Assembly (NCBI GenBank): GCA_023384595.1
Contig: JAHDVQ010000018.1
Span: 1 to 42,969 of the forward strand
Source: Vicinamibacteraceae bacterium
GTDB taxonomy: Bacteria; Acidobacteriota; Vicinamibacteria; Vicinamibacterales; JAFNAJ01
Reading direction: 5' to 3'
DNA: 42,969 nt
Shown here: positions 8,860 through 37,693 of the stretch, in pieces
How the letters are laid out: every line of letters starts with the position of its first letter
How positions within the stretch are numbered: the stretch's first letter is position 1
Program-made: the position numbers and the translations under genes
Notes under the pieces: model-generated
Seen by the model: only the letters and a program-made list of their open reading frames with translations
Told to the model about the DNA's origin: nothing
Databases searched by the model: none

Positions 8860-9630
8860 TCAGGGCTGCACGTCGAGCAACCGCCGCAGCTTGTTCTCGG
8901 GGCCCCGGCTGGCCGTCAGCCGCGTGCCGTCCTGCAGGATCACCGCGTACTCGCCGTGAAAGAGCGGCTGCAGTTCCTTGATGCGCTCCGTGTTGACGAT
9001 GGTCGATCGGTGGATGCGGATGAACCGGTTCGGATCGAGCTTGGCCTCGATGCCCTTCATCGTCTCGCGCAGGAGGTGCGAGATGGGGCCCACGTGCAGC
9101 CGCACGTAATTGCCTTCGGCCTCGATCCAGTCGATCTCGTCCACCTTGAGGAAGGCGACCCGCCCCGAGCTCTTGAGCACCAGCCGTTCCGGCGGACGCC
9201 GTTCCTCGCGCAGGTTCTCGAGCAGCGACAGCAACCGCTCGTTCACGCCGCCGTTCCCGGCGCCCTTCGTCAGCTCGTCGCGCGCCCGCTCGATCGCCTT
9301 CTTGAAGCGCTTGCCGTTGAAGGGCTTCAGCAGGTAGTCCAGCGCGTGCACCTCGAAGGCCTGCAGCGCGTACTGGTCGTAGGCGGTCACGAAGATGACG
9401 GCCCGCGGCAGCTCCGTATCGAGCGCCTGCAAGACCCCGAAGCCGTCGACGACGGGCATCTGGACATCGAGGAACACCAGGTCGGGCTTCTTGGCCCGGA
9501 TCTCGGCAATGGCCTCGCCGCCATCGCCGCTCTCGCCAACGACTTCGATGTCGGACTCCTGTTCGAGTAGCGTGCGAATACGCTCGCGGGCGAGCGGCTC
9601 ATCGTCGACGATGCAGGCACGAATCGTCAT
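8860..9630 (-). CDS. LytTR-family response regulator
   Basis: A 256-residue two-component regulator. The receiver domain spans about 1-120, with acidic residues CIVDDE, phospho-acceptor Asp55 (LVFLDVQMP), the switch Thr in FVTAYDQ and Lys in LLKPF. A LytTR DNA-binding domain follows (about 150-250), marked by IDWIEAEGNYVRLHV, RFIRIHRSTIVN and the terminal LTASRGPENKLRRLL. The ATG lies within a 4-base ATGA overlap with the stop of the upstream histidine kinase, so the pair is translationally coupled. LytTR proteins bind imperfect direct repeats; I did not find a convincing pair nearby. Confidence 0.95.
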   Translation of the reverse strand: MTIRACIVDDEPLARERIRTLLEQESDIEVVGESGDGGEAIAEIRAKKPDLVFLDVQMPVVDGFGVLQALDTELPRAVIFVTAYDQYALQAFEVHALDYLLKPFNGKRFKKAIERARDELTKGAGNGGVNERLLSLLENLREERRPPERLVLKSSGRVAFLKVDEIDWIEAEGNYVRLHVGPISHLLRETMKGIEAKLDPNRFIRIHRSTIVNTERIKELQPLFHGEYAVILQDGTRLTASRGPENKLRRLLDVQP

Positions 9631-10832
9631 GACGGGTCTCCTTCGTTCCGGATGGGGGCTTCGGCGGACGGGTCCTGGGGGACGAGCATCGTGACCAGGG
9701 TTCCGCCCTTCGGATGGTTCGTGAGGTCGAGCGAGGCGAGCGGGCCGTAGAGCTGCGTGAGGCGCGCACGCGTGTTGGCGAGGCCGATGCCGGAATGCGG
9801 CGCCGGCACGCCGTTCACGCGCAGGCCCGGTCCGTCGTCGCGCACCTGCAGCTGCAGCATGCCCTCCGTGCCGCGGGCGCGAATCTCGATGACGCCGCGA
9901 CCGGCCCGCGGATCGAGGCCGTGCCGGATGGCGTTCTCGACGATCGGCTGCAGGACCTGGTTCGGGACGCGGGCATCGAGCGTCTCGGGCGGCACGTCGA
10001 TGGTGACCGCGAGCCGGTCATGAAACCGCGTCTGCTGAATGTCGATGTAGCGCTGCAGGAAGTCGAGTTCTTCGCGAAGCGTCACCTCCTGCACGCCGAT
10101 GGTGTCGAGCGTCATACGCAGCAGGTCGCTGAGCTGCGTGACCATGTCGTCGGCGGCGTCGGGGTTCTTGTGGATGAGCGTCGAGATGGCGTGCAGCGTG
10201 TTGAACAGGAAGTGCGGGTTCAGCTGCATGCGCAGCACCTCGAGCTGGGCCTGCGCCAGCCGCGACTCGAGCTGCGAGGCCGTCAGCTCGCGCTCGCGCG
10301 CCCGACGGTGGTTCTGCCAGGCCTGGTCGGCGGCCACCATCACGAGGTACGACAGGTAGACGTAGAGCAGCTGTCCGATGATGATGCGCGTGGCAGGGAT
10401 GGGTTCGGAGTCGACCCACGGGCCGACGGCCGCGCGGATGACCCCGTGCAGCACCGCGAAGACGACCCCAGCCAGCAGGTGGATGGCCAGCGCGGCGCGC
10501 CACGTGGACGTCTCGAACCGGAACCGCCGCGAGAGGTAGAACACGGCGGGACCGAGCAGGAGCCACGGATACCAGGTGGCGAAGCCCGAGGCCAGCGCCT
10601 CGCCCCACGCCACCGGCATGCGCTCGCGGTAGACCACCCAGAGGTGCGCGGCCGTGACGAGGCTCAAGAGCGTGAGGCCCGCGACGAAGAGGCCGATCTT
10701 GGGCCACGCGGCGCGCCAGCCGTCGCCGAACTCCCCGTCGACGAGCTGCGCCGGACGGTCTTCGAGCAGTGCCGGTCCCGGTGTGGGCCGGGCCACCCCG
10801 GGTGCCATGCCGTCGGTCGAGCTCATCGTCAT
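9627..10832 (-). CDS. LytS/YehU-type sensor histidine kinase
   Basis: An inner-membrane histidine kinase of about 401 residues and cognate partner of the LytTR regulator. Four hydrophobic segments occur at about 44-66, 84-101, 114-134 and 149-168, with no large extracytoplasmic domain, so it probably senses something in or near the membrane. A coiled linker leads to LNPHFLFNTLHAI with phospho-acceptor His207, the His_kinase (PF06580-type) signature, and then an HATPase domain with VENAIRHGLDP (N box) and RDDGPGL and SGIGLANTRARL (G boxes). ATG 10832 is used; ATG 10826 is almost as good. The gene sits 63 bases downstream of the DUF4824 gene on the same strand. Confidence 0.93.
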   Translation of the reverse strand: MTMSSTDGMAPGVARPTPGPALLEDRPAQLVDGEFGDGWRAAWPKIGLFVAGLTLLSLVTAAHLWVVYRERMPVAWGEALASGFATWYPWLLLGPAVFYLSRRFRFETSTWRAALAIHLLAGVVFAVLHGVIRAAVGPWVDSEPIPATRIIIGQLLYVYLSYLVMVAADQAWQNHRRARERELTASQLESRLAQAQLEVLRMQLNPHFLFNTLHAISTLIHKNPDAADDMVTQLSDLLRMTLDTIGVQEVTLREELDFLQRYIDIQQTRFHDRLAVTIDVPPETLDARVPNQVLQPIVENAIRHGLDPRAGRGVIEIRARGTEGMLQLQVRDDGPGLRVNGVPAPHSGIGLANTRARLTQLYGPLASLDLTNHPKGGTLVTMLVPQDPSAEAPIRNEGDPS

Positions 10833-10895
10833 GGTCTACGCTGATGCTCGGGCAAAGTTCTGACGAACGGCAACGGCGATGTGACGGTCGGGCCG

Positions 10896-11783
10896 TCAGG
10901 TGGGACCGGTCGTCCCAGCGTCGGGCTGTGCCGGTGGATTGATGACGTCGACGCGCAGGATACGCGGCCGCATGCGGCGGCCCACCGCGATCTCGACGCG
11001 GTAGCGCGGGGGCCACGGGCTCTGCGCGAGCGTGACGCCGCCGGCATGCGGGGGGAGCCGCCGGGTTTCGTCCCGCGCGCGAAGCGGCTCGACGGCCCGA
11101 CGGCTCGAGGGCGGCACGAGCAGCGTCTCGGGGAGCAGGCCCCCGACCTCGCCGACGAGCGCCGGACCGCCGGCGCCGCCGGCCCGCTCGAGCCGGCGCA
11201 GCCTCACGACGGCGGGAAGGATCACGTATCGCTTTCGGTCCGCATACCGGAGACGCAGCGCCTCGGCATCGCTCCCGGCATCGACGGGCACCAGTCGCGA
11301 CGCGCGCGCGGGAGCCGCCGCGATGGCCGACTCGTCCAGTCCCGGCGCGCCGGCTGGATCTCGTCCTTCGGGTTTGCTGCGAGCCCGGGCCTGCCATGCC
11401 GCGATGCGTGACGCCAGGGCCTCGGACGCGAGGTCGAACACGACGAAGGCGGGGCGGCCGGGCACGCCGGCGTAGAACTTCTCGGCTTCGGGGGCGCCAG
11501 GGCGAACCGAGACATCGAAGCCGATGGCCTCGAGGGTGCGGGGGCCAAGGGCCACCGGGAGGCCCGCCTCGGCGGTGGTCCTCGAGGGGGCTGCCGGCTG
11601 GAAGCGCCAGTGGAGGCGAACCGCGCTGCTGTCGTCGCGCATCTCGCCGCCCAGCCACAGCTCGCGCTCGTCGAGCGTGACGACGGTGTCGGGCTCCCCG
11701 CCGCGATCGGCGACGACGAGTGCCGCGATGCCCAGGTTGACGAGACCGGCGATCGCGATCGGGAGGAGCAGCACGCGGCGCAT
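10896..11783 (-). CDS. DUF4824-like membrane-anchored protein
   Basis: A 295-residue protein with one N-terminal hydrophobic segment (LLLPIAIAGLVNLGIAALVV) followed by a soluble, probably extracytoplasmic part. The sequence after the anchor (GGEPDTVVTLDERELWLGG) and the hydrophobic/charged alternation fit the DUF4824 family, usually found beside a DUF2157 gene, as here. No catalytic motif is visible and I do not assign a reaction. The ATG at 11783 was chosen because its A is the last base of the DUF2157 TGA; a longer open frame upstream is only the shadow of DUF2157. A GDYXXLXY-type assignment is the alternative, but I do not see that motif. Confidence 0.72.
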   Translation of the reverse strand: MRRVLLLPIAIAGLVNLGIAALVVADRGGEPDTVVTLDERELWLGGEMRDDSSAVRLHWRFQPAAPSRTTAEAGLPVALGPRTLEAIGFDVSVRPGAPEAEKFYAGVPGRPAFVVFDLASEALASRIAAWQARARSKPEGRDPAGAPGLDESAIAAAPARASRLVPVDAGSDAEALRLRYADRKRYVILPAVVRLRRLERAGGAGGPALVGEVGGLLPETLLVPPSSRRAVEPLRARDETRRLPPHAGGVTLAQSPWPPRYRVEIAVGRRMRPRILRVDVINPPAQPDAGTTGPT

Positions 11784-12859
11784 CAGGCCCCCTTCAGCAG
11801 GCGGCGCCGCACGCGCTGGAGCAGCCACGACACGGCCAGGGCCATCGCGCCCGCGATCAGGAAGAACAGGTAGCGCGGCATCCAGTCCCACCACCAGTCG
11901 ACGAACTTCAGCAGCGAGGCGATCGCGAGCAGCGCCGTCGCCGTCGCCGTGACCTCGGGCCAGCGGCGCTTGATGCCGATGGCCATCGCCGTCAGCGCGA
12001 CGATGAAACTGACGATCTGGTAGGCCACCTCCACGGCGTCGGGGTCGGCCGGGAGGTAGGACAGGTGTCCGGCCCGGCTCATGAGGAGCACGGCGACGGC
12101 CACGAGCAGCATCGTCAGCGTGCGAAGGACGGCGGGGAATCCCTCGTACCTTACCCCGTGAGGAACGGCCGACCACAGGGCGAGGCCGCCGGCCCCGAGC
12201 AGGACGCCCTCCGGCCTCATCGCGAAGTCGAGGCCCCATCCGCCGGTCGAGGCCACCAGCGCCGCGGCCACCCACGCGGCCAGGCAGACCGCGCCGGCCG
12301 CCAGGATCAAGCGGTGACGATACGCGTAAGCGAGACTCACGCCGAAGGCGCCGTAGCCCAGGAGCACGGTCGCGCTCGGCGCGAGCGAGTAGATGGCGCC
12401 CAGCACCTCGACGTTCAGCACGAGGGCGGCAAACGAGAGCACCACGAAGAGGCCGGCGGCGACGCGGTAGCGAATCGACCGCGACAGCACCTCGGCGCCC
12501 GCCAGCGCCGCCAGCGGCGCCGCCACCACGATGCCCACCTGAGCAGCCATCGGCAGCACGCCCCAGATCCGGAAGAAGAAGAGGGCGAGCCCGGTGGCCA
12601 CCGCCAGCGCGCCGACGATGGCCGCCAGCTTCAGGCCGAGCGAGGCAGGTTTCTGGCCTTCGAGCACGTCGATATCGAACCGCGCGACGAGCGCCCCGCG
12701 CAGCGCGCGGTGGTAGGACGCGAGACGCAACCGCTCATCGGGCGTGAGCCGCAACACGCCGTCGCGTTCTACTTCTTCGAGCTCCAGCTCGAACGCGCGG
12801 ATGCGATCGGCCCGCGCCTGCGCCCCGCCCTGTGAGCCGGGCAGGCTGAAGTCCGGCAT
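11783..12859 (-). CDS. DUF2157 polytopic membrane protein
   Basis: A 358-residue integral membrane protein. A charged N-terminal cytoplasmic part of about 75 residues (LELEEVERDGVLRLTPDE...) precedes roughly ten closely packed hydrophobic segments and a basic C-terminus (LLQRVRRRLLKGA). This is the DUF2157 layout, whose biochemical role is unknown to me. A TAGAAT box sits only six bases before the ATG, so the message may be leaderless. It overlaps the DUF4824 gene by one base, and the two are presumably made together. The next gene upstream is divergent. Confidence 0.8.
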   Translation of the reverse strand: MPDFSLPGSQGGAQARADRIRAFELELEEVERDGVLRLTPDERLRLASYHRALRGALVARFDIDVLEGQKPASLGLKLAAIVGALAVATGLALFFFRIWGVLPMAAQVGIVVAAPLAALAGAEVLSRSIRYRVAAGLFVVLSFAALVLNVEVLGAIYSLAPSATVLLGYGAFGVSLAYAYRHRLILAAGAVCLAAWVAAALVASTGGWGLDFAMRPEGVLLGAGGLALWSAVPHGVRYEGFPAVLRTLTMLLVAVAVLLMSRAGHLSYLPADPDAVEVAYQIVSFIVALTAMAIGIKRRWPEVTATATALLAIASLLKFVDWWWDWMPRYLFFLIAGAMALAVSWLLQRVRRRLLKGA

Positions 12860-12865
12860 GGCGCG

Positions 12866-12871
12866 ATTCTA
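12866..12871 (-). promoter_or_regulatory. -10 box giving a probable leaderless DUF2157 mRNA
   Basis: TAGAAT reads on the minus strand and ends six bases before the DUF2157 ATG, which places a normal transcription start on or next to the A of the start codon. No recognisable -35 element lies 16-18 bases upstream. The call rests on the -10 match alone. Confidence 0.4.
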
Positions 12872-12911
12872 CGCCGAGTCTGGCGGCGAGGTGATGGAGG
12901 CGACCACGGGC

Positions 12912-12917
12912 TAGAAT
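12912..12917 (+). promoter_or_regulatory. -10 box upstream of the TamB-Omp85 fusion gene
   Basis: TAGAAT on the plus strand, 18 bases before the fusion-gene ATG, predicts a leader of about 12 bases. It faces the divergent TAGAAT at 12866-12871. There is no clear -35. A weak purine-rich stretch (AAGAAGAG) precedes the ATG in place of a strong Shine-Dalgarno sequence. Confidence 0.45.
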
Positions 12918-12935
12918 GCGAAGAAGAGTTCCACC

Positions 12936-15900
12936 ATGTCCCGCTGGCGCCGCCGACTCGCGATCGGCTTCCTCGTCGTCGCAGCCCTGCTGCTCCTCCT
13001 GCTCGCCGGGCTCCAGACGCCGTGGGCGCGCCGCCAGGCCATCCGCCAGGTGGTGTCGGCCCTCGAGGGACAGGGCATCCACGCGACGTTCGGGTCGATC
13101 GGCTACAACCCGCTGACGCTCCGGGTATCGGCGGGCGAGGTCCGGCTTGCGCCCATCGACACCCCCTCGGCGCCGTTCTTCGCGGCCCGGCGTATCGACG
13201 CGCAGGTGCCCTGGGCGCTCCTGCGGGGGGAGTTGCGCATCACCTCGCTCGAGGTCGACGGCGGCCGGCTCACGCTCGCCCGCGGCGACGACGGTCGATG
13301 GAACCTGCCGCCCTCGCGCGAGTCGGCCCCGCGCACCGAACCTTTCATCCTCCCCATCGGACGGCTGCGGCTCTCGGACTTCGGCGTGACCGTCGAGGAT
13401 CCGGACGGCGGGTTGCGCGTACGGCTCGACGGCCTCGACGTGACGCTCGACCCTCGCGGTGACGGCACGATTGCGGGACCGCTCGCCATCCAGGGTCCGC
13501 TCGAGATTGAGACCGCCGGCCGAACCCTCGCGGCCCGGAACGTCGCGGGCACCCTCGCCTATGACGGCCGCCACGTGCAGCTGGCGCCGCTGACGCTGGA
13601 GGTGATCCGCGCGGACGGGACGCCGATGACAACGGCCCGCGTCGAAGGGCGTCTGGCCGACGTGTACGGCGATCTCGCCGCGGAACTGGGAATCGAGGGA
13701 CGAGCCGACGGGGCGGTGGCCGCGCGATGGCTCGAGCTTGGCGAGCCGGTCGAAGGCGACGTGGACTGGACGGCCCGGCTCGAAGGGGCGATCGCCGATC
13801 TGGAGGTGCCCTTCACGGCGCGCAGCGACGCGCTCGCGTTCGGTGCACTGGCGCCGGCGCGACTCGACGTGGCGGGCAAGTACACGTCCGACGCCGTGAC
13901 CCTCGACCGAATCGAGGCCGCCCTGCTCGGCGGCCGCGCCGAAGGCCGGGCGCGCATCGCGCTTGGTGAGGAAGGCCGGGCCGCCGCGAGTCTCACGTGG
14001 CACGACCTGCCCGTCGACGCGCTCAGCCGCCTCGTCGAACCGCGCGGGTACCAGGTCGCGGCGGCGACGACGGGCGAGTTCGAAGGGGAGTGGCAATCGG
14101 CCGATTGGCGCACCTTCGAGGCGCGGGCCGCCGTGCGCTTCACGCCGCGGCCGGGGCGCGGTGTGCCGATCTCGGGAAGGGCGTCGCTCGATGCGGGCAA
14201 CCGGCGATACGCGCTGGCGTCGTCGCTCGAGGTGGGTGGGCACACCCGCGCGGACGTGAGACTGGGCGGCGGCCTGGCGCAGCGGTGGTCCGACGCGGGG
14301 CTCGCCGGCGAGACCCGCGTCGAGACCACCGATATCGCCTCGCTGGTCTCTGCCATCCGCGCGACGGGCGCCGCCGACGTGGAACTGCCGGGCGGGCTCT
14401 CGGGTCCGCTCGTGGTGGCGGGCCGCGTCGAGGGGCAGATGGCGCGGCCCGTGCTCGTCGCGACGGCCGAAGCCCCCGCGCTGACGCTTGGCACCCCCGA
14501 CGCGACCGGCGCGCTCGTCGCGAGCGTCCGCGCCGACACGTCGGTCCTCGATGCCGAGGTGCGCTCGCTCGTGCTCGCCGGCAATCAGACGGAAGGCCAC
14601 GTGACCGTGCGCTTCACGAACCGCGCGCTCGAGGGACGGTTCGAGACGACGGTGACCGATCTCGGTGCGCTCGCGGGCCCCTTCGTGCCGGCCCTCGACG
14701 GGATGGCTGTGGCCGGGGCCGGGCGCGTCGTCACCACCATCGCCGGGACGCTCTCGCGACCCGTTGTCGACAACGACGTGGCCTTGAGCGGCGTCGCGCT
14801 CGCCGGCCAGGCGCCGGCCGTCGTCGGCGGCCGCGTCGGTCTCGACGGCACGGCGGTCGTCCTCGATCGGGTCGAGATTCGGCGCCCGGAAGGCGACCTC
14901 GTGCGCCTCGACGGACGCTACGACTGGGCTCGCGACGCGCTCGACCTGCGCGGATCGGTCGACGCGTGGAGCCTGGCGCCGATCGCGCTGAGCGCCGAAG
15001 GCGCGCCGGTGCCGGTGCGGGGGACCGTCGATACGCTCCGCGTCGAGCTCGCGGGCCCCCTCGAGACGCTCGGCGGCAGCCTCACGCTCAACGCACGCGA
15101 CCTCGCGTACGGGGGGCTGGCGCTCGGCACCGCGGGTCTCGACGCGCGCTTCGACGGGGGCCGCGGCGTCGTCGCGGTCACCATGCGCGAACTCGGCGGC
15201 GTGGTCGAGGGAAACCTCTCGCTCGCCGGCGAACGGCCCTTCTTCGCGAACGTGCGCCTCGACCAGGACGACGTGCGGCGGTTGCTCCCGATCGAGGACC
15301 CGCGCCTCGACCTGCTCTCGCTCGGGATCGAAATGAACGCCGTGGTGCAGGGCCGGCTCGGAGACGTCGAGAACCTCGTGGCCACCGCCGAGGTCACCCG
15401 GCTCGACGGCCACCTCGATCGGACCGCGGTCGCGCTCGCGAGCCCGGCGCGGTTCACCTACGCCGAGCGTCGCGCCCAGGCGGAGGCCTTCGATCTGCAG
15501 TACGGATCCACGCGCGTGCGCCTCTCGGGTGCGCTCGGTGAGGCCCTCGACGGTGTGCAACTGCGCGTCACCGGCAACCTCGCCGACTTCGAGTCGGCCA
15601 TCAGGCTGGCCGGCATGACGGCGCCCTTCGCGCTCTTCGGTGGGTTCACGCTCTCGCTCGACGCGGCCGGCCCGATGGCGGCGCCCGACATCCGCGCGTC
15701 GCTCGCCATCGAGAACGCGCAGGCGTCGGTGAACAATCTGCCGCCCGCCTTCGATATCCAGGTGGCGGCGGCCTACGAGGAGGGGGTGCTGGCTGTCGAG
15801 ACCCTGCGCGGGCAGTGGCAGGACTCGACCCTGCAGGCCTCGGCCCGGATACCGGCGCGCATCGCGGCCGAGCATCTGCCGGCCAGCTACGTGGCCTCAC

Positions 15901-18900
15901 TGCCACCCCTGACGTCGGCCGCGACAATCGACGCCAGCTTCGACCCCCTGACGCCGCGCGCGCTCGAACCGGTCCTGAGCGGCAACGTGCTCGACGCCCT
16001 CCGCGGCGTCGTGTCGGGGCGGCTGCACCTCGAGACCGAGGCGGCGGCGCTCGAGGCCTGGCGCGGCGAGCTCCAGCTCGATCGACTCGCGCTCTCGGTC
16101 GCCAACGTCCCGCTCGAACAGACACGTCCGACACGCGTCGAGCTGGCCGGCGGCCGCGTCCGCATTCGCGACCTCGAGTGGGCCGGCGAGGGCAACCGCC
16201 TGACGGCGGTGGGCGCCATCGCCCTCACGGGAGCCGACACGCCGCGCTTCGACCTGGCCGTCGACGGCGAGGGCGACCTTCGGGTACCGGGGGCCTTCTT
16301 CCCCGGGATCTCCACTGGAGGCCGGGCGCGGGCCTCGTTGTCGGTGTCGGGGCCCGTCTCGATGCCCAGGCTCGACGGGCTCGTGACGGTGACCTCCGCC
16401 GAGGTGCGGCTGCGCGAACCCCGCCTCGCGGTGACGGAACTGAACGGGAACATCGTGCTCGTCGGCGACCGCGTGCAGTTCGACAACCTGCGCGGCACGC
16501 TCAACGGCGGCCGCCTCGACGTGGGCGGCGAGCTGACGCTGGCGGGGTTCGACATCGGGACGGCCGGCATCACCGTCACCGCGCGCGGCGTCGCGATGGA
16601 GTATCCGGAGGGGTTCCGCAGCGAGCTGCGCGCGTCGGTGTCGCTCACCAAACGCGCCGGCGAGCCCACGGCGCTGCTCGGGGGCAAGGTGGTCGTGCTG
16701 CGCGGCGCCTATCGGGCGCCGCTCAGCCTGCTCTCGTTCACGCAGGGCGGCCGCGCGATCGTGCAGGGCCTGGCAGGCGAGGAGCCGTCGGCCCTCGAGC
16801 GCACGCGGCTGAACATCACCATCCGCTCGGTCGAGGACCTGATCGTCGACAACAACTACGGACGCTTCGAGGCCGGGCTGGACCTGCGGCTCACCGGCAC
16901 GGTGCACGAGCCGGCGCTGGCGGGCCGCCTCGCGCTGCGCGAGGGCGGCGAGGTGTACCTCGCCGGCACGACGTACAACCTCGAGCCGAGCACCGTCGAC
17001 TTCGTCGATCCCACCCGCATCGTGCCGGAGCTCGGCATCGTCGCGCGCACGCGCGTGGGGGGCCGCGACATCCGCCTGAACGTGACCGGTCCGCCCGACA
17101 ACCTGTCGCTCGACCTCACGTCCGAGGACGAGGACCTCGGGCGCGCCGACCTCGCGTCGCTCCTCCTCACCGGGCGCACCATGGAGCAGACGACGGGGGC
17201 CGAGGCCGACGCGGCTGGTGCCCTCGCGCTCAGCCTGCTGTCGGGCGAGGTGCTCGGGTCGGCCGGCCGCGCGTTCGGGCTCGACAGCGTGCGCCTCACC
17301 CGCGGCGACGTCATCGACGACGACTTCCGGCTCGATCCGACCCTCATCTTCGAGGAGACCGACCCGGCCTCACGCCTGACCATCTCGAAGAGCATCAACG
17401 GCGTGGTCGACGTGATCGTCTCGCAGAACCTGAAGGACAGCGGACGCCTCACGTGGATCGTGAGCGCGCGCACGATTGCCCGTATCGAGCTGCGCGTCGT
17501 CTCGGCCGACGACAACGATCGCACCTACGAGATCCGGCAGGATCTCGAGTTCGGCGGACCGTCACCGGCGGCGCGGCGGGCCCGCGCGCAGCAGCGTGCC
17601 AGAGCCAGGGGACAGCGCGGCGAGATGGAGGTCGGCGAGGTGGCCGTCGAGGCGACGCCCTCGGCCGACCGTCCAGCCCTCACGGCGCGGCTGCGGCTCG
17701 AACCCGGCGACACCTTCGACTTCTTCGAGTGGCAGGACGACCGCGATCGTCTGCTCGAGCTGTACCGGAACCAGGGCTACCTCGAGGCGCGTGTCGACGC
17801 CTCGCGCGAGACGGTTCGGCCCGGCGATGGCGAGCGGCTGGTGAACCTGCGGTACGAGGTCACTCGCGGACCGCGCACCGAGGTCCGGGTCGAGGGGCAC
17901 CCGGTGCCCGAGAGCGTCGTGGGCCGTATTCGCGAGGAGTGGGCCGACGCGGTGTACGACGGCTTCCTCCTCGACGATGCGACGCGGATCGTTCGCGAGC
18001 ACATCGCGTCGGAGGGGTACTTGCGCGGAACGGTCGAGGCCCGGGTCGATGGCGGGGCCGACGCCCCCGTGAAGACGCTCGTCGTGGCGGTCTCTCCCGG
18101 TCCGCTCTCGACGGAACGCCACATCGAATTCCGTGGGCGGGCCACGCTCGACGAGGGCGAGCTGACGGACGCGCTCGACCTCGCCGACCTCGAGACTCGC
18201 GCGTTCGTCGCGCCGGCCGAGGCCGCCGAGATCGTGCGCCGTACCTATCAGCTGCGCGGCTACCTCGACGCCAAAGTTGAGGCGCAGGCGCTCGAGTTTG
18301 CCGGCGACCGGGCCGTGCTGCCCCTGATGATCGAGGAGGGCGTGCGCTACGAATCGAGCGCGATCCGTTTCGAGGGTGTGTCGGCGGTGCCCGAGACCGA
18401 GCTCGCCGAGGCGGCCAACTGGGAGGCGGGCCGCCCGTTCGAGTCGGAGCCGTTCCTGCTCGCGCGCGGCAGGGTGGAGCGCTATTACCGGCAGCGCGGC
18501 TACAACAACGCGCTCGTCACGCCCCGCATCGACCTGGACCGCGAGGGCGGCGTCGCGCAGGTGACCTTCAACATCACCGAGGGGCCGCGACAGGTCATTA
18601 CCGACATCGTCGTGGTCGGTGGCGACAACACGTCGCGACGCCTCATCAGGCGGGCGTTGGACTTCCAGTCGGGCGATCCGGCGAACCTCGAGAAGATCTA
18701 CCGGGCGCGAAAACAGCTGTACGACACGGGCGTGTTCCAGCGCGCCGACGTCGAGGTCGTGCCGCCCGGGACGGCCGAAGCGCGCGAGGCTGCGGCCGAG
18801 GCGCGCGCGGCCCGGCTGCAGGCCCGGGTCGCGCGTCCGGTGTCGGAGACGCCGCCGGGGGCTCCCGAGACGACGCCGCCCGGCACGGGGGCACCGGGCG

Positions 18901-19997
18901 TCGTCACCGCCGGCGCCACATCACCCGAGGCGCCTCGGGTCATCGAGGACGGTGTCGAGAAGGTGGAGGCGCTCGTGACCCTCGTGGAGCGCCGGCCGTG
19001 GCGCTTCCGCTGGGGCTTCCTCGTCACCGACGTGTACGACGAGTTCAACGAGAAGCGCCGTCAGCGCCCCGGCGTCACGGCCGACATCCAGTACCGGAAC
19101 CTCTTCGGACAGGCGGTCACGACCGGGGTCGCCGTCCGCGCATCGCGCGACTACCAGGCCGGCCGCGCCTTCATCACCGCACCGCGGCTGTTCCGGCGCA
19201 ACATCCGATCGAGCGTGTATCTCACGCGATCGCACGAGGACTTCGGCGTCGAAGGTCTGCCGCTCGAGATCGATCGCACCATCCTGTCGCTCGAGCAGCG
19301 CGTGCGGCCGCGTCCGGCGCTCGAGTTCAGCTGGGGCGCCAGCTACGAGCGGACGGACTTCCTCAACGAGTTCATCCCCGGCTTCGCGTTCGGCGGCATC
19401 CTCGACGTCATCAAGGCGCAGGCGCTCGGCCTCTACGATCGCCGTGACAACCCGTTCGACGCGACGCGCGGCTGGTTCCACGCCTCGGCCGTGGAGTACG
19501 GCATCACCCGGTCGGGCGGCGACCAGCGATTCCTGAAGTTCTCCACGCAGCAGTTCCACTACTGGACGGTCGCCGACCGGGTGGTACTCGCGACGGCCGT
19601 CCGCGGCGGAGTCGCGACAGGGTTCGGCGACGACCTCATCGTCACCGAGCGGTTCCTGCTCGGCGGCGGCAACACCGTGCGCGGCTATCCCGAAGAATCG
19701 CTCGGCCCCCGCGACGAGTTCGGACGCGTGGCCGGAGGCGAGGCCGTCCTGGCGTTCAACCAGGAAGTCCGGTTCCCGGTCTGGAAGTGGCTGCGCGGCG
19801 TGGCCTTCGTCGACGCCGGCAACGTGTTCCGGCGGCCGGACGACTTCGATGTCGGCAATCTGAAGGTCGGGGCCGGGCTGGGCGCCCGGCTGCACACACC
19901 GTGGGTGGTGCTCAGGCTCGACTTCGGTCTGCCGGTGTCGGACTCCACCGACCTGTCGCGCGGCCGCTGGATCTTCTCGCTCGGCCAGGCCTTCTGA
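12936..19997 (+). CDS. TamB-TamA/BamA fusion: envelope-spanning translocation/assembly protein
   Basis: One uninterrupted 2353-codon frame joins two proteins that are normally separate. Residues 8-26 form an inner-membrane anchor. Residues ~30-1100 are repetitive AsmA/TamB-type beta-rich sequence, and ~1100-1540 match the conserved TamB C-terminal (DUF490) region (e.g. TTYNLEPSTVDFVDP, LTISKSINGVVDVIVSQNL). After a basic linker, ~1555-2000 holds a POTRA-like series (LYRNQGYLEARVD, YRQRGYNNALV, LYDTGVFQRADVEV), interrupted at ~1950-2005 by a Pro/Thr/Gly-rich insert. Residues ~2020-2353 are an Omp85 barrel with the lid-loop motif VRGY at 2248-2251 and a C-terminal aromatic beta-signal ending in Phe. 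TamA and TamB normally cooperate to insert outer-membrane proteins and move lipids across the periplasm. The fusion would fix their ratio at 1:1. Confidence 0.9.
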   Translation: MSRWRRRLAIGFLVVAALLLLLLAGLQTPWARRQAIRQVVSALEGQGIHATFGSIGYNPLTLRVSAGEVRLAPIDTPSAPFFAARRIDAQVPWALLRGELRITSLEVDGGRLTLARGDDGRWNLPPSRESAPRTEPFILPIGRLRLSDFGVTVEDPDGGLRVRLDGLDVTLDPRGDGTIAGPLAIQGPLEIETAGRTLAARNVAGTLAYDGRHVQLAPLTLEVIRADGTPMTTARVEGRLADVYGDLAAELGIEGRADGAVAARWLELGEPVEGDVDWTARLEGAIADLEVPFTARSDALAFGALAPARLDVAGKYTSDAVTLDRIEAALLGGRAEGRARIALGEEGRAAASLTWHDLPVDALSRLVEPRGYQVAAATTGEFEGEWQSADWRTFEARAAVRFTPRPGRGVPISGRASLDAGNRRYALASSLEVGGHTRADVRLGGGLAQRWSDAGLAGETRVETTDIASLVSAIRATGAADVELPGGLSGPLVVAGRVEGQMARPVLVATAEAPALTLGTPDATGALVASVRADTSVLDAEVRSLVLAGNQTEGHVTVRFTNRALEGRFETTVTDLGALAGPFVPALDGMAVAGAGRVVTTIAGTLSRPVVDNDVALSGVALAGQAPAVVGGRVGLDGTAVVLDRVEIRRPEGDLVRLDGRYDWARDALDLRGSVDAWSLAPIALSAEGAPVPVRGTVDTLRVELAGPLETLGGSLTLNARDLAYGGLALGTAGLDARFDGGRGVVAVTMRELGGVVEGNLSLAGERPFFANVRLDQDDVRRLLPIEDPRLDLLSLGIEMNAVVQGRLGDVENLVATAEVTRLDGHLDRTAVALASPARFTYAERRAQAEAFDLQYGSTRVRLSGALGEALDGVQLRVTGNLADFESAIRLAGMTAPFALFGGFTLSLDAAGPMAAPDIRASLAIENAQASVNNLPPAFDIQVAAAYEEGVLAVETLRGQWQDSTLQASARIPARIAAEHLPASYVASLPPLTSAATIDASFDPLTPRALEPVLSGNVLDALRGVVSGRLHLETEAAALEAWRGELQLDRLALSVANVPLEQTRPTRVELAGGRVRIRDLEWAGEGNRLTAVGAIALTGADTPRFDLAVDGEGDLRVPGAFFPGISTGGRARASLSVSGPVSMPRLDGLVTVTSAEVRLREPRLAVTELNGNIVLVGDRVQFDNLRGTLNGGRLDVGGELTLAGFDIGTAGITVTARGVAMEYPEGFRSELRASVSLTKRAGEPTALLGGKVVVLRGAYRAPLSLLSFTQGGRAIVQGLAGEEPSALERTRLNITIRSVEDLIVDNNYGRFEAGLDLRLTGTVHEPALAGRLALREGGEVYLAGTTYNLEPSTVDFVDPTRIVPELGIVARTRVGGRDIRLNVTGPPDNLSLDLTSEDEDLGRADLASLLLTGRTMEQTTGAEADAAGALALSLLSGEVLGSAGRAFGLDSVRLTRGDVIDDDFRLDPTLIFEETDPASRLTISKSINGVVDVIVSQNLKDSGRLTWIVSARTIARIELRVVSADDNDRTYEIRQDLEFGGPSPAARRARAQQRARARGQRGEMEVGEVAVEATPSADRPALTARLRLEPGDTFDFFEWQDDRDRLLELYRNQGYLEARVDASRETVRPGDGERLVNLRYEVTRGPRTEVRVEGHPVPESVVGRIREEWADAVYDGFLLDDATRIVREHIASEGYLRGTVEARVDGGADAPVKTLVVAVSPGPLSTERHIEFRGRATLDEGELTDALDLADLETRAFVAPAEAAEIVRRTYQLRGYLDAKVEAQALEFAGDRAVLPLMIEEGVRYESSAIRFEGVSAVPETELAEAANWEAGRPFESEPFLLARGRVERYYRQRGYNNALVTPRIDLDREGGVAQVTFNITEGPRQVITDIVVVGGDNTSRRLIRRALDFQSGDPANLEKIYRARKQLYDTGVFQRADVEVVPPGTAEAREAAAEARAARLQARVARPVSETPPGAPETTPPGTGAPGVVTAGATSPEAPRVIEDGVEKVEALVTLVERRPWRFRWGFLVTDVYDEFNEKRRQRPGVTADIQYRNLFGQAVTTGVAVRASRDYQAGRAFITAPRLFRRNIRSSVYLTRSHEDFGVEGLPLEIDRTILSLEQRVRPRPALEFSWGASYERTDFLNEFIPGFAFGGILDVIKAQALGLYDRRDNPFDATRGWFHASAVEYGITRSGGDQRFLKFSTQQFHYWTVADRVVLATAVRGGVATGFGDDLIVTERFLLGGGNTVRGYPEESLGPRDEFGRVAGGEAVLAFNQEVRFPVWKWLRGVAFVDAGNVFRRPDDFDVGNLKVGAGLGARLHTPWVVLRLDFGLPVSDSTDLSRGRWIFSLGQAF

Positions 19998-23820: not shown

Positions 23821-26800
23821 TCAATCAGGTGAGTTCCGGATCGCCTCGAGCGCCGTCGCGGGAAGGAGCGGGAAGTCGGAAAGCACGCACGCCGTTTCTT
23901 CTGGCGTGAGGCGTGCGAGGCGGAGGACCTCGCGCTGCAGCGCGATGTACGGGCGGCTCTCGAACAGCGAAGCTCCGCCGTGGCGCGATGCGCCGCTCAA
24001 CCGGCGCGCGAGGCTGGCGAGCGTCTTCGCCACCGCGGATCCGGGCACGACCCACGGCAGCGGTAGCGCCTCGACGATGGCCGTCGTGACGTGCGACGAC
24101 ACGCGGCGCCGCACCAGGTAGTTGGCCAGCAGGCTGTTCAGCAGCGCGCACAGGACCCACGCCGGTTCATCGTCCTCGCGCGGGTCCAGGCAGAACAGCG
24201 TGTGCGTCGAGAGGGTGGACGAGGGGAGCACGGCCGCAATGAGCGTGAGCTGGTTGGTCGGCGAGGCCACGTCACGGTAGGCGAGTCTCGGCCGTCGGGC
24301 ACGCTCCGCCAGGCGCGGGCGCCGGTCGAGCGCCGCGGCGTCGATCCAGCGACGAGCCGCGCCGCGCTCGACGCGGAACGGGTGGACGTCCTTGCCGTCG
24401 AGCACGGGCCATCCCCTGGCGGCTCCGTTGAAGAGGGCACGGTCGTCCGAGGCGTTGAGCTCGCGTCCGAAGCGGGCCCCATATCCCGTCGAGTCTCCGA
24501 GCCGCGGATGCTCGACTGCCAGACGCTCGAGGAGCCGCGCGCCCACCTCGTCACGCACGTCGGGTACGGACAGGTCGGGCCCCGAGACGCGCCGTAGCCA
24601 GCCGAGCGACAGCGTGAGCGGCCACGCCGTCCGGTCGCCTCCCGCATCGGGCACGGCGTCCAGGGGTGTCGTGGTCGTCAGCCCCAGGCGCGCCGGTACC
24701 AGGCGCGCCCCGGCGTCGTCGGCCGGCATCGCGTGGGCGCGGGGTTTCGCGGCAGTGAACACGGCGAACCGTACGCCACGGTGAATAGGGAAGAGCCCAT
24801 GGCGGTTGTCGAACGACACGACGCCGTCGACCGTGTGGCGCGCGAACAGCGCGTGCCTCAACGGGCCGCTGCCGGCGTCGGCGAGCAGGCCCCACGGCAC
24901 GACGAGCCCCAGCCGGCCGTCGGGCGCGACCAGGTCGAGCACTCGATCGACGAAGAGCTGGTACTGATTGGCGTGGCCCTGGCGGCAGTGCGGGAAGCGG
25001 CCCGACTCGCGCGCGTAGCGCACGACCAGCGCGGGCGACGCCGGCCCGTGCGTCCGCCCGTCGTCGGCGCGGAGCATGTCCCAGGGCGGATTCCCGAGCA
25101 CCGCGTCGAATCCCGCGCGCTCGCGCCACGCCCCGTCCTCGTCGAAATAGACTTCCGGGAACTCGAGATCCCAGTGGAAGTACCGGAGGGCGGCCGCGCA
25201 CGCCTCGGTGTGCCGCCGGATTGCTTCGCAGGTGTCGGGGCCGAGACCCGACGCGCGCCCGAGCCAGTGGTCGCCGTACGCGCGGTAGGACGCACCACGC
25301 GGCGGCGGCGAGCCATCGTCCCAGAACCAGGCCGACACCCACGCGTCGGCCATCGCGCGCCAGGCCGCGCGCAGGCCGCCCTCGCCATCGAGGGCCGCCA
25401 GTTGCCGCTGCTTTGCCGCGACATCCCCTGGCGTCAGCTCGGGCTGGCGCGCCAGGCCGTGGCGCACCCGCACGATCCCGGGGAGCGTCACGCCGAGGTC
25501 GTCGAGAGGTAGCGTCGGCGCTCCCCGCGCGTCGAGCCGCCCGGGTGAGGGCGCGCGGGCGAGATCGGCGAGACGGGCCCCGAGCAGGCTGTTGCCGCAA
25601 CGCAGCCGGTGATCGAGAAACGTCAGCGGCTTCGTCCCCGCCAGCGTCGTGAGCCACAGCGAGAGGCGCGCCAGCTCGACGGCACGGGGATTCAGATCGA
25701 CCCCGTACAGGCAGCGCTGCGCCACCAGACGCCTGAACCCGCCGCGATCGGCCTCGGTCAGGTCGCCGGGGCGCACGCGCCCCTCGTGCACAAGAGCGGC
25801 CTCGTAGGCCTGCGCGATGTAGCGGCACGCCCCCACCAGAAACGCCCCGCTCCCCATCGCGGGATCGAGGACGCGAAGCGTGAGAATGTCGTCGCTGGTG
25901 CGGCCGCTCATGAGCGGCGCCAGCGTGCGGCGCACGAGGAAGGCCGTGATGGCGGCAGGCGTGTAGAACGACGAGGTCGCCTTGCGCGCCGACACGGCCG
26001 CGTGTCGTTTGTCAGGCGGGTCCGCCGCGCGGTCGCTGCCGAGAGGCCAGTCCTCGAGCACGCGCTCGTAGATGGCGCCGAGCTGCTCGACGCCGAGGTC
26101 GGCGTAGTCGAAGCGGACGACGGAGGGGCGTCCGCGTGCGCGATACGTGGCGAGCGCCCGCACCGCGATGGCGGCCTCGCCGTCGTCCAGCGTCGCGCGC
26201 TCGCTCGCCGGAGCCGACGCGGGAGAGAAGAGCTGGCTGTCGTAAGCGGTCACCCGCAGCGTCCCCGCACGGCAGCCGCGGTCGGCCAGGCGCGAGGTCG
26301 CCTTCAGCATGGCCCACAATCCGCGCGGCGGCGCGGCGGCGGCGCGCTCGACGGCCGACTGCATCGAGTAGTGTGCGCGGAAAATCGGATGCCACAGCGG
26401 TGCGAGCCCGGTGGCCTCGACATAGAGCAGGAACAGCAGCCGGTAGACCAGCGTGAGCGCCTGCTCCGCAAGTGGCGGCTCGTGCGGCCGGGCCGCGGTC
26501 GCCCGTGCGAGCGCGCGACCGAAGGCGACCAGCGCCACGCGCACACCGTCGTCGAGCGCGCGGTGCGTGGTGGCGCGATGGGACTCGGATTCGCTGACGA
26601 GCCGGTCGATGGAGCACGGCCTGCCGGGCCGCGCGAGCAAGGCGCCCGCCCACCCAACCGCGACGAGGCTCACCCCCTCGGACCGCTCGGAGACGACGCG
26701 CCCGAGGTCGACGACATGGGCAAGGCGGCTCCACGCTCGCTCGGCGTCGGTCACGAGCCATGTGCGCCCGTTGGTGGCCAGCGCGAACCGCGACCCGGCG

Positions 26801-27159
26801 TCGAGCGCGGCCTGAATCAGCCGGCGCCATTCGGCGTGGGGGTTGCCGCCGAACGGCAGCACCGCGAGCGGGACCTCGGGGCCGGCCTGGTCCGCGGCTC
26901 TCGCCAGCAACCACCATGTGCCCCGCTCGTCGATGCGCTCGCGCTCGACGATGAATCCCAGGAGGCGGGCGAGCGGCACGGCGAGCAGCGTCGCGACCGT
27001 TCCGGCGCCCGAGGCTGGTCCGAGTTGCGCCGATGCCCGGCTGCAGAGCCGGCGCAGGCGGTCCACGGTGCGGTCGAGGCGTGCGGCATCCATCCGCCCG
27101 CGCATGACGCTCTCGAGACGGCGGGCGACGAAGTCCGACGACAGCAGCGGGGCGATCAT
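23821..27159 (-). CDS. Eco57I/type IIG-like N6-adenine DNA methyltransferase
   Basis: An 1112-residue DNA modification protein. SAM-binding motif I is LDPAMGSGAFLVG (around residue 430), followed by YGVDLNPRAVELARLSLWL. The catalytic motif IV is VLGNPPWDML (around 688), the NPPY/W class of N6-adenine methylases. The C-terminal region has the TaqI-like specificity appearance, ending in a SHVTTAIVEALPLPWV type segment. The N-terminal ~200 residues resemble the nuclease-like domain of type IIG enzymes (LATNGRTWLVTDAERAW), but I cannot find the D...ExK triad: the strand where ExK is expected reads VPLAVLPFGGNP. It overlaps the upstream helicase gene by four bases (ATGA). It probably belongs to a defence module. 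Confidence 0.85.
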   Translation of the reverse strand: MIAPLLSSDFVARRLESVMRGRMDAARLDRTVDRLRRLCSRASAQLGPASGAGTVATLLAVPLARLLGFIVERERIDERGTWWLLARAADQAGPEVPLAVLPFGGNPHAEWRRLIQAALDAGSRFALATNGRTWLVTDAERAWSRLAHVVDLGRVVSERSEGVSLVAVGWAGALLARPGRPCSIDRLVSESESHRATTHRALDDGVRVALVAFGRALARATAARPHEPPLAEQALTLVYRLLFLLYVEATGLAPLWHPIFRAHYSMQSAVERAAAAPPRGLWAMLKATSRLADRGCRAGTLRVTAYDSQLFSPASAPASERATLDDGEAAIAVRALATYRARGRPSVVRFDYADLGVEQLGAIYERVLEDWPLGSDRAADPPDKRHAAVSARKATSSFYTPAAITAFLVRRTLAPLMSGRTSDDILTLRVLDPAMGSGAFLVGACRYIAQAYEAALVHEGRVRPGDLTEADRGGFRRLVAQRCLYGVDLNPRAVELARLSLWLTTLAGTKPLTFLDHRLRCGNSLLGARLADLARAPSPGRLDARGAPTLPLDDLGVTLPGIVRVRHGLARQPELTPGDVAAKQRQLAALDGEGGLRAAWRAMADAWVSAWFWDDGSPPPRGASYRAYGDHWLGRASGLGPDTCEAIRRHTEACAAALRYFHWDLEFPEVYFDEDGAWRERAGFDAVLGNPPWDMLRADDGRTHGPASPALVVRYARESGRFPHCRQGHANQYQLFVDRVLDLVAPDGRLGLVVPWGLLADAGSGPLRHALFARHTVDGVVSFDNRHGLFPIHRGVRFAVFTAAKPRAHAMPADDAGARLVPARLGLTTTTPLDAVPDAGGDRTAWPLTLSLGWLRRVSGPDLSVPDVRDEVGARLLERLAVEHPRLGDSTGYGARFGRELNASDDRALFNGAARGWPVLDGKDVHPFRVERGAARRWIDAAALDRRPRLAERARRPRLAYRDVASPTNQLTLIAAVLPSSTLSTHTLFCLDPREDDEPAWVLCALLNSLLANYLVRRRVSSHVTTAIVEALPLPWVVPGSAVAKTLASLARRLSGASRHGGASLFESRPYIALQREVLRLARLTPEETACVLSDFPLLPATALEAIRNSPD

Positions 27160-29402
27160 CGTGGTGCGTATGGCACGCGGACAACGAGCCGCGTGTCGCT
27201 GTCGACGAGGAGGGCCTGGACGTGCGCGTCCGGGGTCACCGCCCCGGACGGTGGCGCGTCCTCGAATCCGAACAGCGAGGGCTGCCTCGCACCGGCCCGC
27301 GCACGCTTCCGCAGACTCGCCGCCAGTGCCGCCCGGCGCGGCGGCTCAGGGCCGGGCATCGCCGTCCATCGCGGACGAGGCACCGGCTGGTCAACCGGCT
27401 CGCACGAGAGCGTCCGCGCGACGAGGTAGCCGTCGGTGCGGCGTACGGTGGTCTGCACGACCGCGACGTCTCGCCCCCCAGGCGCGCGGCGACGGCCCGC
27501 GAAGTGGGGGATGGCCGCCGCGTCCACGCCGCCTCCGCGGCCCTCGCGCTGCCACTGGCGCCTGGCGCGCCGCTGCTGTTCGAGATCGGCAGCGGCCAGT
27601 GCGGCCGCGCGCTCGAGCGCTGGAGAAGGTCTCAGCTGCTCGCCCTGCGCGGTAACCGGACCGTCTGCTCGACCGGGATCCATCGCCGAGTCCGCCGCCT
27701 CCGCGCGCTCGAGGAGGCGTCCGTATTGCGCCCGGTCGACGCGCTCGCGGTAGACCATCGTCATCACGTGGACGGTGCGCGTCTGGCCGAAGCGATCGAC
27801 GCGCCCGGCGCGTTGCTCGACCCGGCGCGGCGACCACGGGACGTCCAGATGCACGACGAGCCTGGCGCGCTCGTGGAGGTTCAGGCCCTCGGCGCCGATG
27901 TCGGTGGTGAGCAGGACCCGCGCGCTCCCGTCGAGGAAGGCGCGCAGCGCCGAGGCACGGTCGGCCGGCGCCATCGCGCCGCTCATCGCAACCAGCGGGA
28001 CGCGCCCCGCGAGCCCCAGCCAGCACGCGCTCAGCGTGTCGCGATACTCGGTGAAGACCACGGCGGCGTCGGGAGCGGCGCGCCGGAGCAGGTCGGCGAG
28101 CCTCGCGATCTTGCGGTCGTCGCGCGCGGCAGTGACACCGGCCAGGCGCAGGCGCGAGAGCCAGGCTCGCTCCCGCGGCCACGGGGTGGGCGAGGTCGTG
28201 CCGACGATCTCGTCGCGCTCCTCCTCGTCGGCGCAGGACGCGGACTCGTCGAACAGCGCGAGCTGCGTGACGACGGGCGCCGCACGGTGCCGAGCCTCCA
28301 GCAGCTCGAGGCGGCGCGAAACGGTCCGCACGAACGCGGCCGCCGACGAGCGTGCCCGCCTGCGGAGGATGCCGGCCAGCAGCTCGACGGCCCCGCCTGC
28401 CGTCGCGGGCAGTACCACGCTCAGGTACTGCTCGAGCACCGCGAAGAGATGCGCGGTCGCGGCCGAGGGCCCCAGCATCAGCGTGTGCGTGCGGCGTCCA
28501 CGCGCCAGGCGAAGCTGCTCCCGCGTGCGGTGAAAGCACATGATCGGGTCGTGCGCGGCAAGCCGTCCCGTGGCGAGCAGGCGCGCGGCCGTGTCGTCGC
28601 GGCCATCGTGCGGCGTTGCCGTGAGCAGCAGCAGCCACTCGGCCGCGCGGCCCAGCGCGTCGGCCGCCGATCGCCGGAAGGTGGGCCGCGTGGCGTGATG
28701 GGCCTCGTCGATGACGACCACGTCCCACGCGACGCCGGTTGCGCCGTGGAGCACGTGAGGCTGCTTGATGAAGTCGAACGACGCGATGCGGCAGCCCTCG
28801 AGGGTCCACGGGCTGGTGCCGTGCGGCAGCGCGGCCGCCTGGCGGGCGAGCCAGCCGGCGTCGCAGACCTCCGCGTCGACGGCGAGCTTTCCCCGCAGCT
28901 CGCCGATCCACTGCGCGACCAGCATCGAGGGGCAGACGACGAGGGCGCGCAGCCGTCCACGGCGCAGCCACGCTTCACGAACGGCGAGCCCCGCCTCGAT
29001 GGTCTTGCCGAGGCCGACCGCATCGGCGACCAGCACCCGTGACACCTCGCCGCCCAGCAACGCGACGAGTGGAGCCAGCTGGTAGTCGACGATGTCGATG
29101 TCGAGGTGGACGGGCGCCAGCGGACGGCACGGCGCGCAGGCCTCCGTTCGCAGGGCCAGCCACGTCCTCCTGGCGTGACGGCGCGACGCCCGCCTGACTC
29201 GTGCCGGAGCAGGCGTGATGTCTTCGACGGCAGCCACGAGCGTGCACGCGGCCGCGCGCCCGGCAGGCGGGGCGAGGTCGACGAGCGCGTCGGCATCGCC
29301 GTCTCCGACAGGCCTGAGGCGCTCGACGATCCAGGCCTCGTCCCTGACGAGCACCCGGGCTCCTGGCACGAGCCCGTGCGGCGGGGATGGCGACAGTGGC
29401 AT
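27156..29402 (-). CDS. SNF2/DEAH-type superfamily 2 helicase, partner of the methyltransferase
   Basis: A 748-residue SF2 ATPase. Motif I is VADAVGLGKTIEAGL (Lys133), motif II VVVIDEAHH (~229-236), motif III LLLLTATPHDGR. In the C-terminal RecA lobe are VVFTEYRDTL, TTDIGAEGLNLH (motif V) and QRAGRVDRFGQTRTV (motif VI). These match SNF2/RapA-like helicases paired with DNA methylases in restriction-type and DISARM-like loci. ATG 29402 is chosen because GGAG lies seven bases upstream and the protein then starts just before the family's N-terminal domain; an open frame continues upstream to 29501. No DrmA, DrmB or DrmC homologue, and no nuclease gene, is adjacent. Confidence 0.82.
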   Translation of the reverse strand: MPLSPSPPHGLVPGARVLVRDEAWIVERLRPVGDGDADALVDLAPPAGRAAACTLVAAVEDITPAPARVRRASRRHARRTWLALRTEACAPCRPLAPVHLDIDIVDYQLAPLVALLGGEVSRVLVADAVGLGKTIEAGLAVREAWLRRGRLRALVVCPSMLVAQWIGELRGKLAVDAEVCDAGWLARQAAALPHGTSPWTLEGCRIASFDFIKQPHVLHGATGVAWDVVVIDEAHHATRPTFRRSAADALGRAAEWLLLLTATPHDGRDDTAARLLATGRLAAHDPIMCFHRTREQLRLARGRRTHTLMLGPSAATAHLFAVLEQYLSVVLPATAGGAVELLAGILRRRARSSAAAFVRTVSRRLELLEARHRAAPVVTQLALFDESASCADEEERDEIVGTTSPTPWPRERAWLSRLRLAGVTAARDDRKIARLADLLRRAAPDAAVVFTEYRDTLSACWLGLAGRVPLVAMSGAMAPADRASALRAFLDGSARVLLTTDIGAEGLNLHERARLVVHLDVPWSPRRVEQRAGRVDRFGQTRTVHVMTMVYRERVDRAQYGRLLERAEAADSAMDPGRADGPVTAQGEQLRPSPALERAAALAAADLEQQRRARRQWQREGRGGGVDAAAIPHFAGRRRAPGGRDVAVVQTTVRRTDGYLVARTLSCEPVDQPVPRPRWTAMPGPEPPRRAALAASLRKRARAGARQPSLFGFEDAPPSGAVTPDAHVQALLVDSDTRLVVRVPYAPR

Positions 29403-29444
29403 CGTGCACTCCGTGGCAGCCAGTGCCATACGGCGAGCGATGCG

Positions 29445-29463
29445 GTACGCAGTGGCTGCGTAC
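29445..29463. repeat. Inverted repeat upstream of the helicase-methylase operon
   Basis: GTACGCAG and CTGCGTAC form perfect 8-base arms around TGG, 43 bases upstream of the helicase start. It could be an operator or an RNA hairpin in the leader. The 7-base core GTACGCA/TGCGTAC recurs in the longer repeat at 34175-34202. The rest of the 29403-29587 gap shows no gene I can support. Confidence 0.6.
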
Positions 29464-29587
29464 GGCAGGGCCTGGCGGTGTCGATCGCGATGCTGTGGCA
29501 AGGCCCGTACCGTGCGCGTCGTCTGGTGGCAGGCAGGTATGCGGGCGCCGGAGGAGCGCTGTGGCCAGCGCAGCGGTGAGCGCGACC

Positions 29588-37549: not shown

Positions 37550-37569
37550 CGGTCCGTGCCGGCCCGGGT

Positions 37570-37575
37570 ATTCTA
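37570..37575 (-). promoter_or_regulatory. -10 box of the NtrC-type regulator gene
   Basis: TAGAAT on the minus strand, 20 bases before the regulator ATG, predicts a leader of about 14 bases. No -35 consensus is seen. The same hexamer precedes DUF2157 and the TamB-Omp85 fusion gene. Confidence 0.4.
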
Positions 37576-37655
37576 CCTTTGCGTGCGGCCGGAGGGCCGC
37601 GCGCTGCGGGCTGGCGCGCCGGCCGCCGTCATCGGGCCACGGGGCGACCCGCGGG

Positions 37656-37661
37656 TATACT
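37656..37661 (+). promoter_or_regulatory. -10 box of the lpd-E2 genes
   Basis: TATACT on the plus strand, 32 bases before the lpd GTG, in the 144-base divergent gap. No good -35 lies at 16-18 bases. A GGGAG Shine-Dalgarno at 37684-37688 follows and supports the GTG start at 37694. Confidence 0.5.
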
Positions 37662-37693
37662 AGGCGACTGGGCGCCCAACAACGGGAGACGAC

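Follow-up and report, generated by a model that had tools for sequence, protein, structure and literature searches.

In E. coli, the docking of TamB onto its Omp85 partner requires POTRA1 of TamA (PMC4525385). Cryo-EM has resolved a stable trans-envelope TamB-TamA complex, in which the TamB cavity contains lipid-like density and the first strand of TamA pairs with the last, C-terminal strand of TamB in a hybrid barrel (PMC12800296). In Acidobacteria, Heinz et al. (2015) described an operon of tamB and a duplicated BamA, BamA copies with seven POTRAs and a few TamBs of ‘very long length’ (PMC4494059). The main text of that study does not mention a fusion. There is also no mention of a TamB-Omp85 fusion in a survey of Omp85 proteins (PMC4104836), a 2024 review of the TAM (PMC11014939) or a study of TamL (PMC12045153). 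Targeted searches, limited to open-access text, did not turn up a published account of the fusion, which may already show in domain databases.

The window analysed here is a stretch of 42,969 nucleotides from a Vicinamibacteraceae bacterium. It carries a gene in which TamB and an Omp85 barrel are encoded as one polypeptide.

Domain architecture of the fused gene

An ORF check of the window identified an ATG-to-stop frame at 12936–19997 (+ strand) which encodes 2353 aa with no internal stop. The order of domains in the protein is a signal-anchor helix, an AsmA/TamB-type all-beta body, PF04357, five POTRAs and an Omp85 barrel. The individual features are listed below.

12936–19997, + strand: fused tamB-omp85 gene (2353 aa) that apparently stands as a unit of its own
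12942–13013, + strand: N-terminal signal-anchor helix, residues 3–26, Arg-rich start, no Cys lipobox (AlphaFold2 helix; hydropathy)
12939–13451, + strand: AsmA/DUF748-like N-terminus, residues 2–172 (Pfam)
13077–17126, + strand: long run of beta-strands, residues 48–1397, read as a TamB-type beta-taco (AlphaFold2)
16488–17447, + strand: TamB C-terminal domain PF04357/DUF490, residues 1185–1504 (Pfam)
17373–17552, + strand: OMP-like terminal strands of TamB, residues ~1480–1539, last residue F1539 (alignment and AlphaFold2)
17553–17627, + strand: linker, residues 1540–1564, Arg/Ala/Pro-rich, no signal peptide (hydropathy and POTRA profile)
17628–17879, + strand: POTRA 1, residues 1565–1648 (POTRA profile; in the unfused seven-POTRA partner it aligns with POTRA 3)
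17865–18104, + strand: POTRA 2, residues 1644–1723 (POTRA profile, AlphaFold2)
18099–18350, + strand: POTRA 3, residues 1722–1805 (POTRA profile, AlphaFold2)
18339–18590, + strand: POTRA 4, residues 1802–1885 (POTRA profile, AlphaFold2, Pfam)
18582–18788, + strand: POTRA 5, residues 1883–1951 (POTRA profile, AlphaFold2)
18828–18929, + strand: insertion rich in Pro, Ala and Thr, residues ~1965–1998, close to the end of POTRA 5 (pLDDT below 50; mostly missing from most relatives)
19098–19994, + strand: Omp85 barrel, residues 2055–2353 by Pfam, model strands 2022–2349, with VRGY and a C-terminal ...SLGQAF (Pfam, AlphaFold2, Foldseek)

The N-terminal anchor has a 12-residue hydropathy of 3.45 and is also found in nearly all fused relatives. 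Pfam matches AsmA at residues 6–131 (34.8 bits against a cut-off of 29.8, 1e-8), while the match to DUF748 at residues 2–172 is just below the cut-off of 50 (49.6 bits). The AlphaFold2 model of residues 1–1199, made with 25 homologues (pLDDT 83.8), consists of the helix at 3–26, a second helix and then near-continuous beta-strands. A Foldseek search of the PDB with this model returned weak matches alone and no TamB. It is thus the Pfam and profile matches, and not the fold search, that support a beta-taco. PF04357 is matched at residues 1185–1504 with 88 bits (cut-off 22.4, 1e-24), and the TamB-domain profile matches the solved E. coli TamB chains 23sp_B and 9xdc_B. The OMP-strand-like end, usually the C-terminus of a TamB protein, is internal in this chain and is followed by the POTRAs. 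Its final residue, F1539, is the equivalent of the Phe with which unfused TamB terminates.

Five POTRAs were located at residues 1565–1951 with a POTRA profile built for this analysis, and there are three Pfam POTRA matches (1e-31). PF01103 is matched at residues 2055–2353 with 129.5 bits (cut-off 24, 3e-37). The AlphaFold2 model of residues 1185–2353, for which 41 fused homologues were aligned (mean pLDDT 78.6), contains five beta-alpha-alpha-beta-beta units and 16 barrel strands. Upstream of the POTRAs the same model contains the end of the beta-groove, low-confidence TamB C-terminal helices, the OMP-like strands and a low-confidence linker. Its fold matches in the PDB by Foldseek are BamA and TamA. 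The preliminary description had called the barrel ‘TamA/BamA-type’, of which only the wider family assignment survives. The POTRAs, the 16-strand barrel and PF01103 satisfy the criteria of the Omp85 superfamily. It is not a typical TamA, with five POTRAs in place of three and 103.7 bits against a cut-off of 625 for the ATportTamA equivalog, nor is it assigned to BamA, as it scores 245.6 bits against the cut-off of 297 of the NCBIfam equivalog OM_YaeT (TIGR03303) despite its five POTRAs. The barrel half is a five-POTRA Omp85, and its nearest non-fused kin are the seven-POTRA Omp85s encoded beside tamB.

The fusion in this window is real. The claim of the preliminary description that TamB and Omp85 lie in one uninterrupted chain of 2353 residues is borne out by the ORF without a stop and by Pfam matches to both halves; a failure of profile searches to detect DUF490 or the barrel, which had been named as a possible refutation, did not occur. 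The boundaries that it gave (the TamB end at ~1540, POTRA-like repeats at ~1555–2000, VRGY and a terminal Phe) all hold. The path of the chain from the inner membrane to the outer, as also stated there, is an inferred topology that follows from the signal anchor at the N-terminus and from a barrel whose C-terminal residue is Phe.

At the junction, a linker of ~25 residues stands in place of the stop, signal peptide and two POTRAs of the unfused pair. The signal peptides of unfused Omp85 partners have a maximum 12-residue hydropathy of 1.8–3.5. By the same measure no signal peptide was found in the fused linkers, while the match to the final Phe of unfused TamB is kept. As the Omp85 signal peptide is absent from the junction, signal peptidase has no obvious cleavage route. 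An internal start that would yield a separate Omp85 was also ruled out, since there is no signal peptide at the join. Structure prediction, proposed earlier as a check on the continuity of the TamB groove with POTRA 1, gave a C-terminal model in which residues ~1416–1480 and 1543–1562 have low confidence and the geometry of the join is unresolved.

The upstream neighbour of the fused gene is divergent and starts at 12859. The downstream neighbour is a convergent amino-acid permease gene on the opposite strand, with its end at 20039. A scan for a promoter and terminator at the fused gene found nothing, and a quick check for conserved gene neighbours found just one recurrent antisense ORF, possibly spurious.

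Two other regions of the window were recorded. An Eco57I/MmeI-like methylase gene (1112 aa) lies beside an SNF2/DEAD helicase gene (781 aa) with a 4-nt overlap at 23821–29501, possibly a restriction or defence system. The gene at 36149–39640 encodes a 1163-aa protein whose C-terminal half is a response regulator and sigma-54 activator, with ~700 aa at the N-terminal without assignment.

Distribution and origins of the fusion

The survey across Acidobacteriota which the preliminary description had suggested found the fusion to be widespread in the phylum. With the C-terminal half as query, at least 53 of the 149 genomes sampled from Vicinamibacterales were seen to join the TamB end and the POTRAs in one frame. 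These frames are typically 2100–2490 aa with no stop, and a few are cut by contig ends. All 40 fetched ORFs contain TamB, POTRAs and barrel in order; 20 come from the order, and the other 20 were long TamB ORFs taken elsewhere in the phylum, from different families and classes. Seven additional distinct long ORFs are also fused. The fusion is present in independent public records of Luteitalea sp., Vicinamibacterales MAGs and Candidatus Sulfopaludibacter.

TamB and Omp85 are also mostly fused in a second phylum, as proteins of ~1660–1920 aa. In 29 of 46 genomes of this phylum there is a TamB frame of 1675 aa or longer, and all 19 that were checked are fusions (18 fetched, L216–L233, and L197). 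In another phylum, taken as a control, none of 55 TamB-bearing genomes had a TamB ORF longer than 1800 aa. The long open frames at G253:C32 and G277:C9 were tried as further fusions and proved to be separate genes in the fetched DNA, so frame length alone was not taken as proof of fusion.

Two public MAGs labelled Acidimicrobiia and Cyanobacteria (L138, L157) carry the fusion and are probably mislabelled Acidobacteriota bins. Some genomes of the order contain a third arrangement (L245, L250, L251), in which a three-POTRA TamA-like gene lies upstream of tamB, as in Proteobacteria.

The assembly of the window also encodes an unfused pair on a different contig (C283, L114). The separate tamB (9459–13601, 1380 aa) overlaps the start of omp85 (13535–16468, 977 aa). 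A BamA candidate is encoded separately in the same genome on contig C76. Unfused TamBs end in Phe (...DVRVRHVF-stop), and unfused Omp85 partners have their own signal peptide and seven POTRAs. Compared with the unfused pair, the fused chain has no stop between its halves, no second signal peptide and neither of the two distal POTRAs, and the Phe-ending strand is retained. The adjacent tamB-omp85 pair is likely to be the precursor arrangement of the fusion. It had been proposed that relatives with two genes and a stop codon at the equivalent site would imply an assembly error. Such relatives do exist, but they form a distinct sister lineage and a paralogous pair within the same genome. As many genomes conserve the fused form itself, it is not an assembly error.

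Trees were made for the TamB C-terminus alone, the Omp85 part alone and both joined, and fused forms occupy at least four places on them. The first is a large Acidobacteriota clade which includes the window and has five POTRAs. The second is a small clade (L098/L110/L239) with four POTRAs detected. The third is a single locus, L240, which is sister to an unfused pair and keeps all seven POTRAs, and the fourth is the second phylum with about six. Trees in which all fused rows were forced together were rejected (p-AU 3e-66), as were those that grouped all Acidobacteriota fused rows (p-AU 8e-12), the main clade with the L098 clade (p-AU 6e-55) or the main clade with L240 (p-AU 0.001). From these trees, the number of separate origins of the fusion seems to be four or more. 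The searches were quick, long branches and differences in composition are present and the groups were named after a tree had been seen, so the exact number of origins is less certain than that there was more than one. Reversal by fission seems unlikely, as it would require a start, signal peptide and POTRAs to be regained. At L240 (3196–10401), where the fused protein has a long linker besides its seven POTRAs, the fusion looks to be either at an early stage or of independent origin.

A probable single-chain TAM and its alternatives

The gene product is probably a single-chain TAM, a covalent bridge from the inner to the outer membrane for lipid delivery and/or barrel assembly. This explanation starts from the observed order of domains and its conservation, the repeated origin, the absence of a signal peptide at the junction and the loss of POTRAs. 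In the inferred membrane topology, the N-terminal helix would anchor the whole chain in the inner membrane and the TamB-type hydrophobic beta groove would span the periplasm. The chain, inferred to remain uncleaved, would then run unbroken from the OMP-like end of TamB through the short linker and five POTRAs to the Omp85 barrel in the outer membrane, into which BAM is inferred to insert it. Such a protein probably originated from an adjacent tamB-omp85 pair by loss of the stop codon, the signal peptide of the partner and two distal POTRAs, with the covalent link taking over from subunit docking. A TAM-like action is most likely, in which phospholipid would pass from the inner to the outer membrane and/or beta-barrel proteins would be inserted at the lateral gate. 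The transported cargo is inferred, as both a lipid cargo and an activity in barrel assembly are assumptions drawn from the families studied in E. coli, and there are no protein-level data. The single-chain reading leaves unexplained the route by which an inner-membrane-anchored chain reaches BAM.

A more far-reaching proposal is possible and remains tentative. In a fusion that recurs with at least four origins in at least two phyla, the link would substitute for the distal POTRAs which dock TamB. The internal TamB strands could pair in cis with the barrel of their own chain to give a hybrid barrel and lipid bridge that are permanent and made of one molecule. BAM would then be faced with inserting a barrel whose chain is still fixed in the inner membrane. 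The last strand of E. coli TamB is a free C-terminus which pairs with beta-1 of TamA (PMC12800296), whereas in the fusion this strand is internal and runs into POTRA 1. The E. coli strand order would put the exit of the linker on the periplasmic side, so that cis entry of the internal OMP-like strands is not excluded.

The fused protein could instead be a precursor from which periplasmic cleavage releases TamB and a five-POTRA Omp85. These would reassociate as a two-subunit TAM, with the fusion merely ensuring equal amounts and co-targeting. This is unlikely, although periplasmic cleavage cannot be excluded. The Arg/Ala/Pro-rich linker at 1540–1564 is poorly conserved with low pLDDT, junction conservation is below that of the flanks in several close pairs, and a cut would account for the free passage of the barrel to BAM. 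The junction, however, has no signal peptide and the linkers have no visible conserved cleavage motif. The main clade has also lost two distal POTRAs, as expected if docking is unneeded, and the E. coli TAM requires POTRA1 of TamA for the docking of TamB.

There is little support for a protein that is not a TAM and resembles an autotransporter or two-partner secretion system, with a beta-rich N-terminal passenger exported via its own Omp85 barrel (compare PlpD). Single-chain Omp85 proteins with an extra N-terminal domain do exist (PlpD, PMC4104836), and a weak ShlB/POTRA_2 signal was returned by Pfam. Against this, the N-terminal part belongs to AsmA/TamB and to no passenger family, the anchor looks uncleaved and the nearest relatives are tamB-omp85 gene pairs.

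It is equally improbable that the fused copy is a decaying or functionless paralogue, a by-product in a genome whose real TAM is the separate pair on C283. The genome of the window and many others of the order do retain both forms. The joined frame is nevertheless kept without a stop in more than 50 genomes of the order, mostly at ~2200–2400 aa, and substitutions between close pairs are biased to third codon positions in both halves, which indicates purifying selection. Among the genomes sampled from other families, at least 13 have the fused ORF as their sole PF04357 match.

An assembly or sequencing artefact that joined two genes can be dismissed. The assembly is fragmented (500 contigs), but the same join recurs in no fewer than 53 genomes of the order, in many further families and in a second phylum, and it does so in independent, publicly accessioned assemblies.

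Comparison with known systems

The fusion bears on whether TamB and its Omp85 partner form a fixed bridge, on their ratio and on the purpose of the POTRA arm. Apparently repeated fusion with loss of the signal peptide, and of two distal POTRAs in the clade of the window, argues for an obligate 1:1 bridge and indicates the POTRAs that serve in docking. It challenges the usual view that barrels of the outer membrane are free periplasmic chains by the time they reach BAM. The fusion is also a single-gene construct of fixed stoichiometry for structural and lipid-transport work.

The tamB-BamA pair of Acidobacteriota, from the same phylum, provides the nearest relatives of both halves, with tamB before omp85 in the loci seen. 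It differs in having two genes, and its Omp85 carries a signal peptide and seven POTRAs. The TAM of Proteobacteria shares the TamB-type anchor, beta groove, DUF490 end, Omp85 partner and envelope-spanning geometry. Unlike the fusion, it consists of two polypeptides, with tamA upstream of tamB and three POTRAs in TamA.

To our knowledge, the extra domains of PlpD and of WD40-Omp85 proteins are not known to be anchored in the inner membrane. These proteins resemble the fusion in that a partner domain is fused N-terminal to the POTRA-barrel (PMC4104836), but the extra domains are enzymes or beta-propellers; the WD40-Omp85 form has been described as BamB-BamA-like. In Bacteroidota, TamB is likewise found with a non-TamA Omp85, TamL (PMC12045153), although TamL is a lipoprotein and the two are separate proteins. 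The BamA-TamB system of Borrelia burgdorferi also combines TamB with a five-POTRA Omp85, the DUF490 end touches the POTRAs and a hybrid barrel is predicted (PMC11361582, PMC13382580); there too, TamB and BamA are separate proteins.
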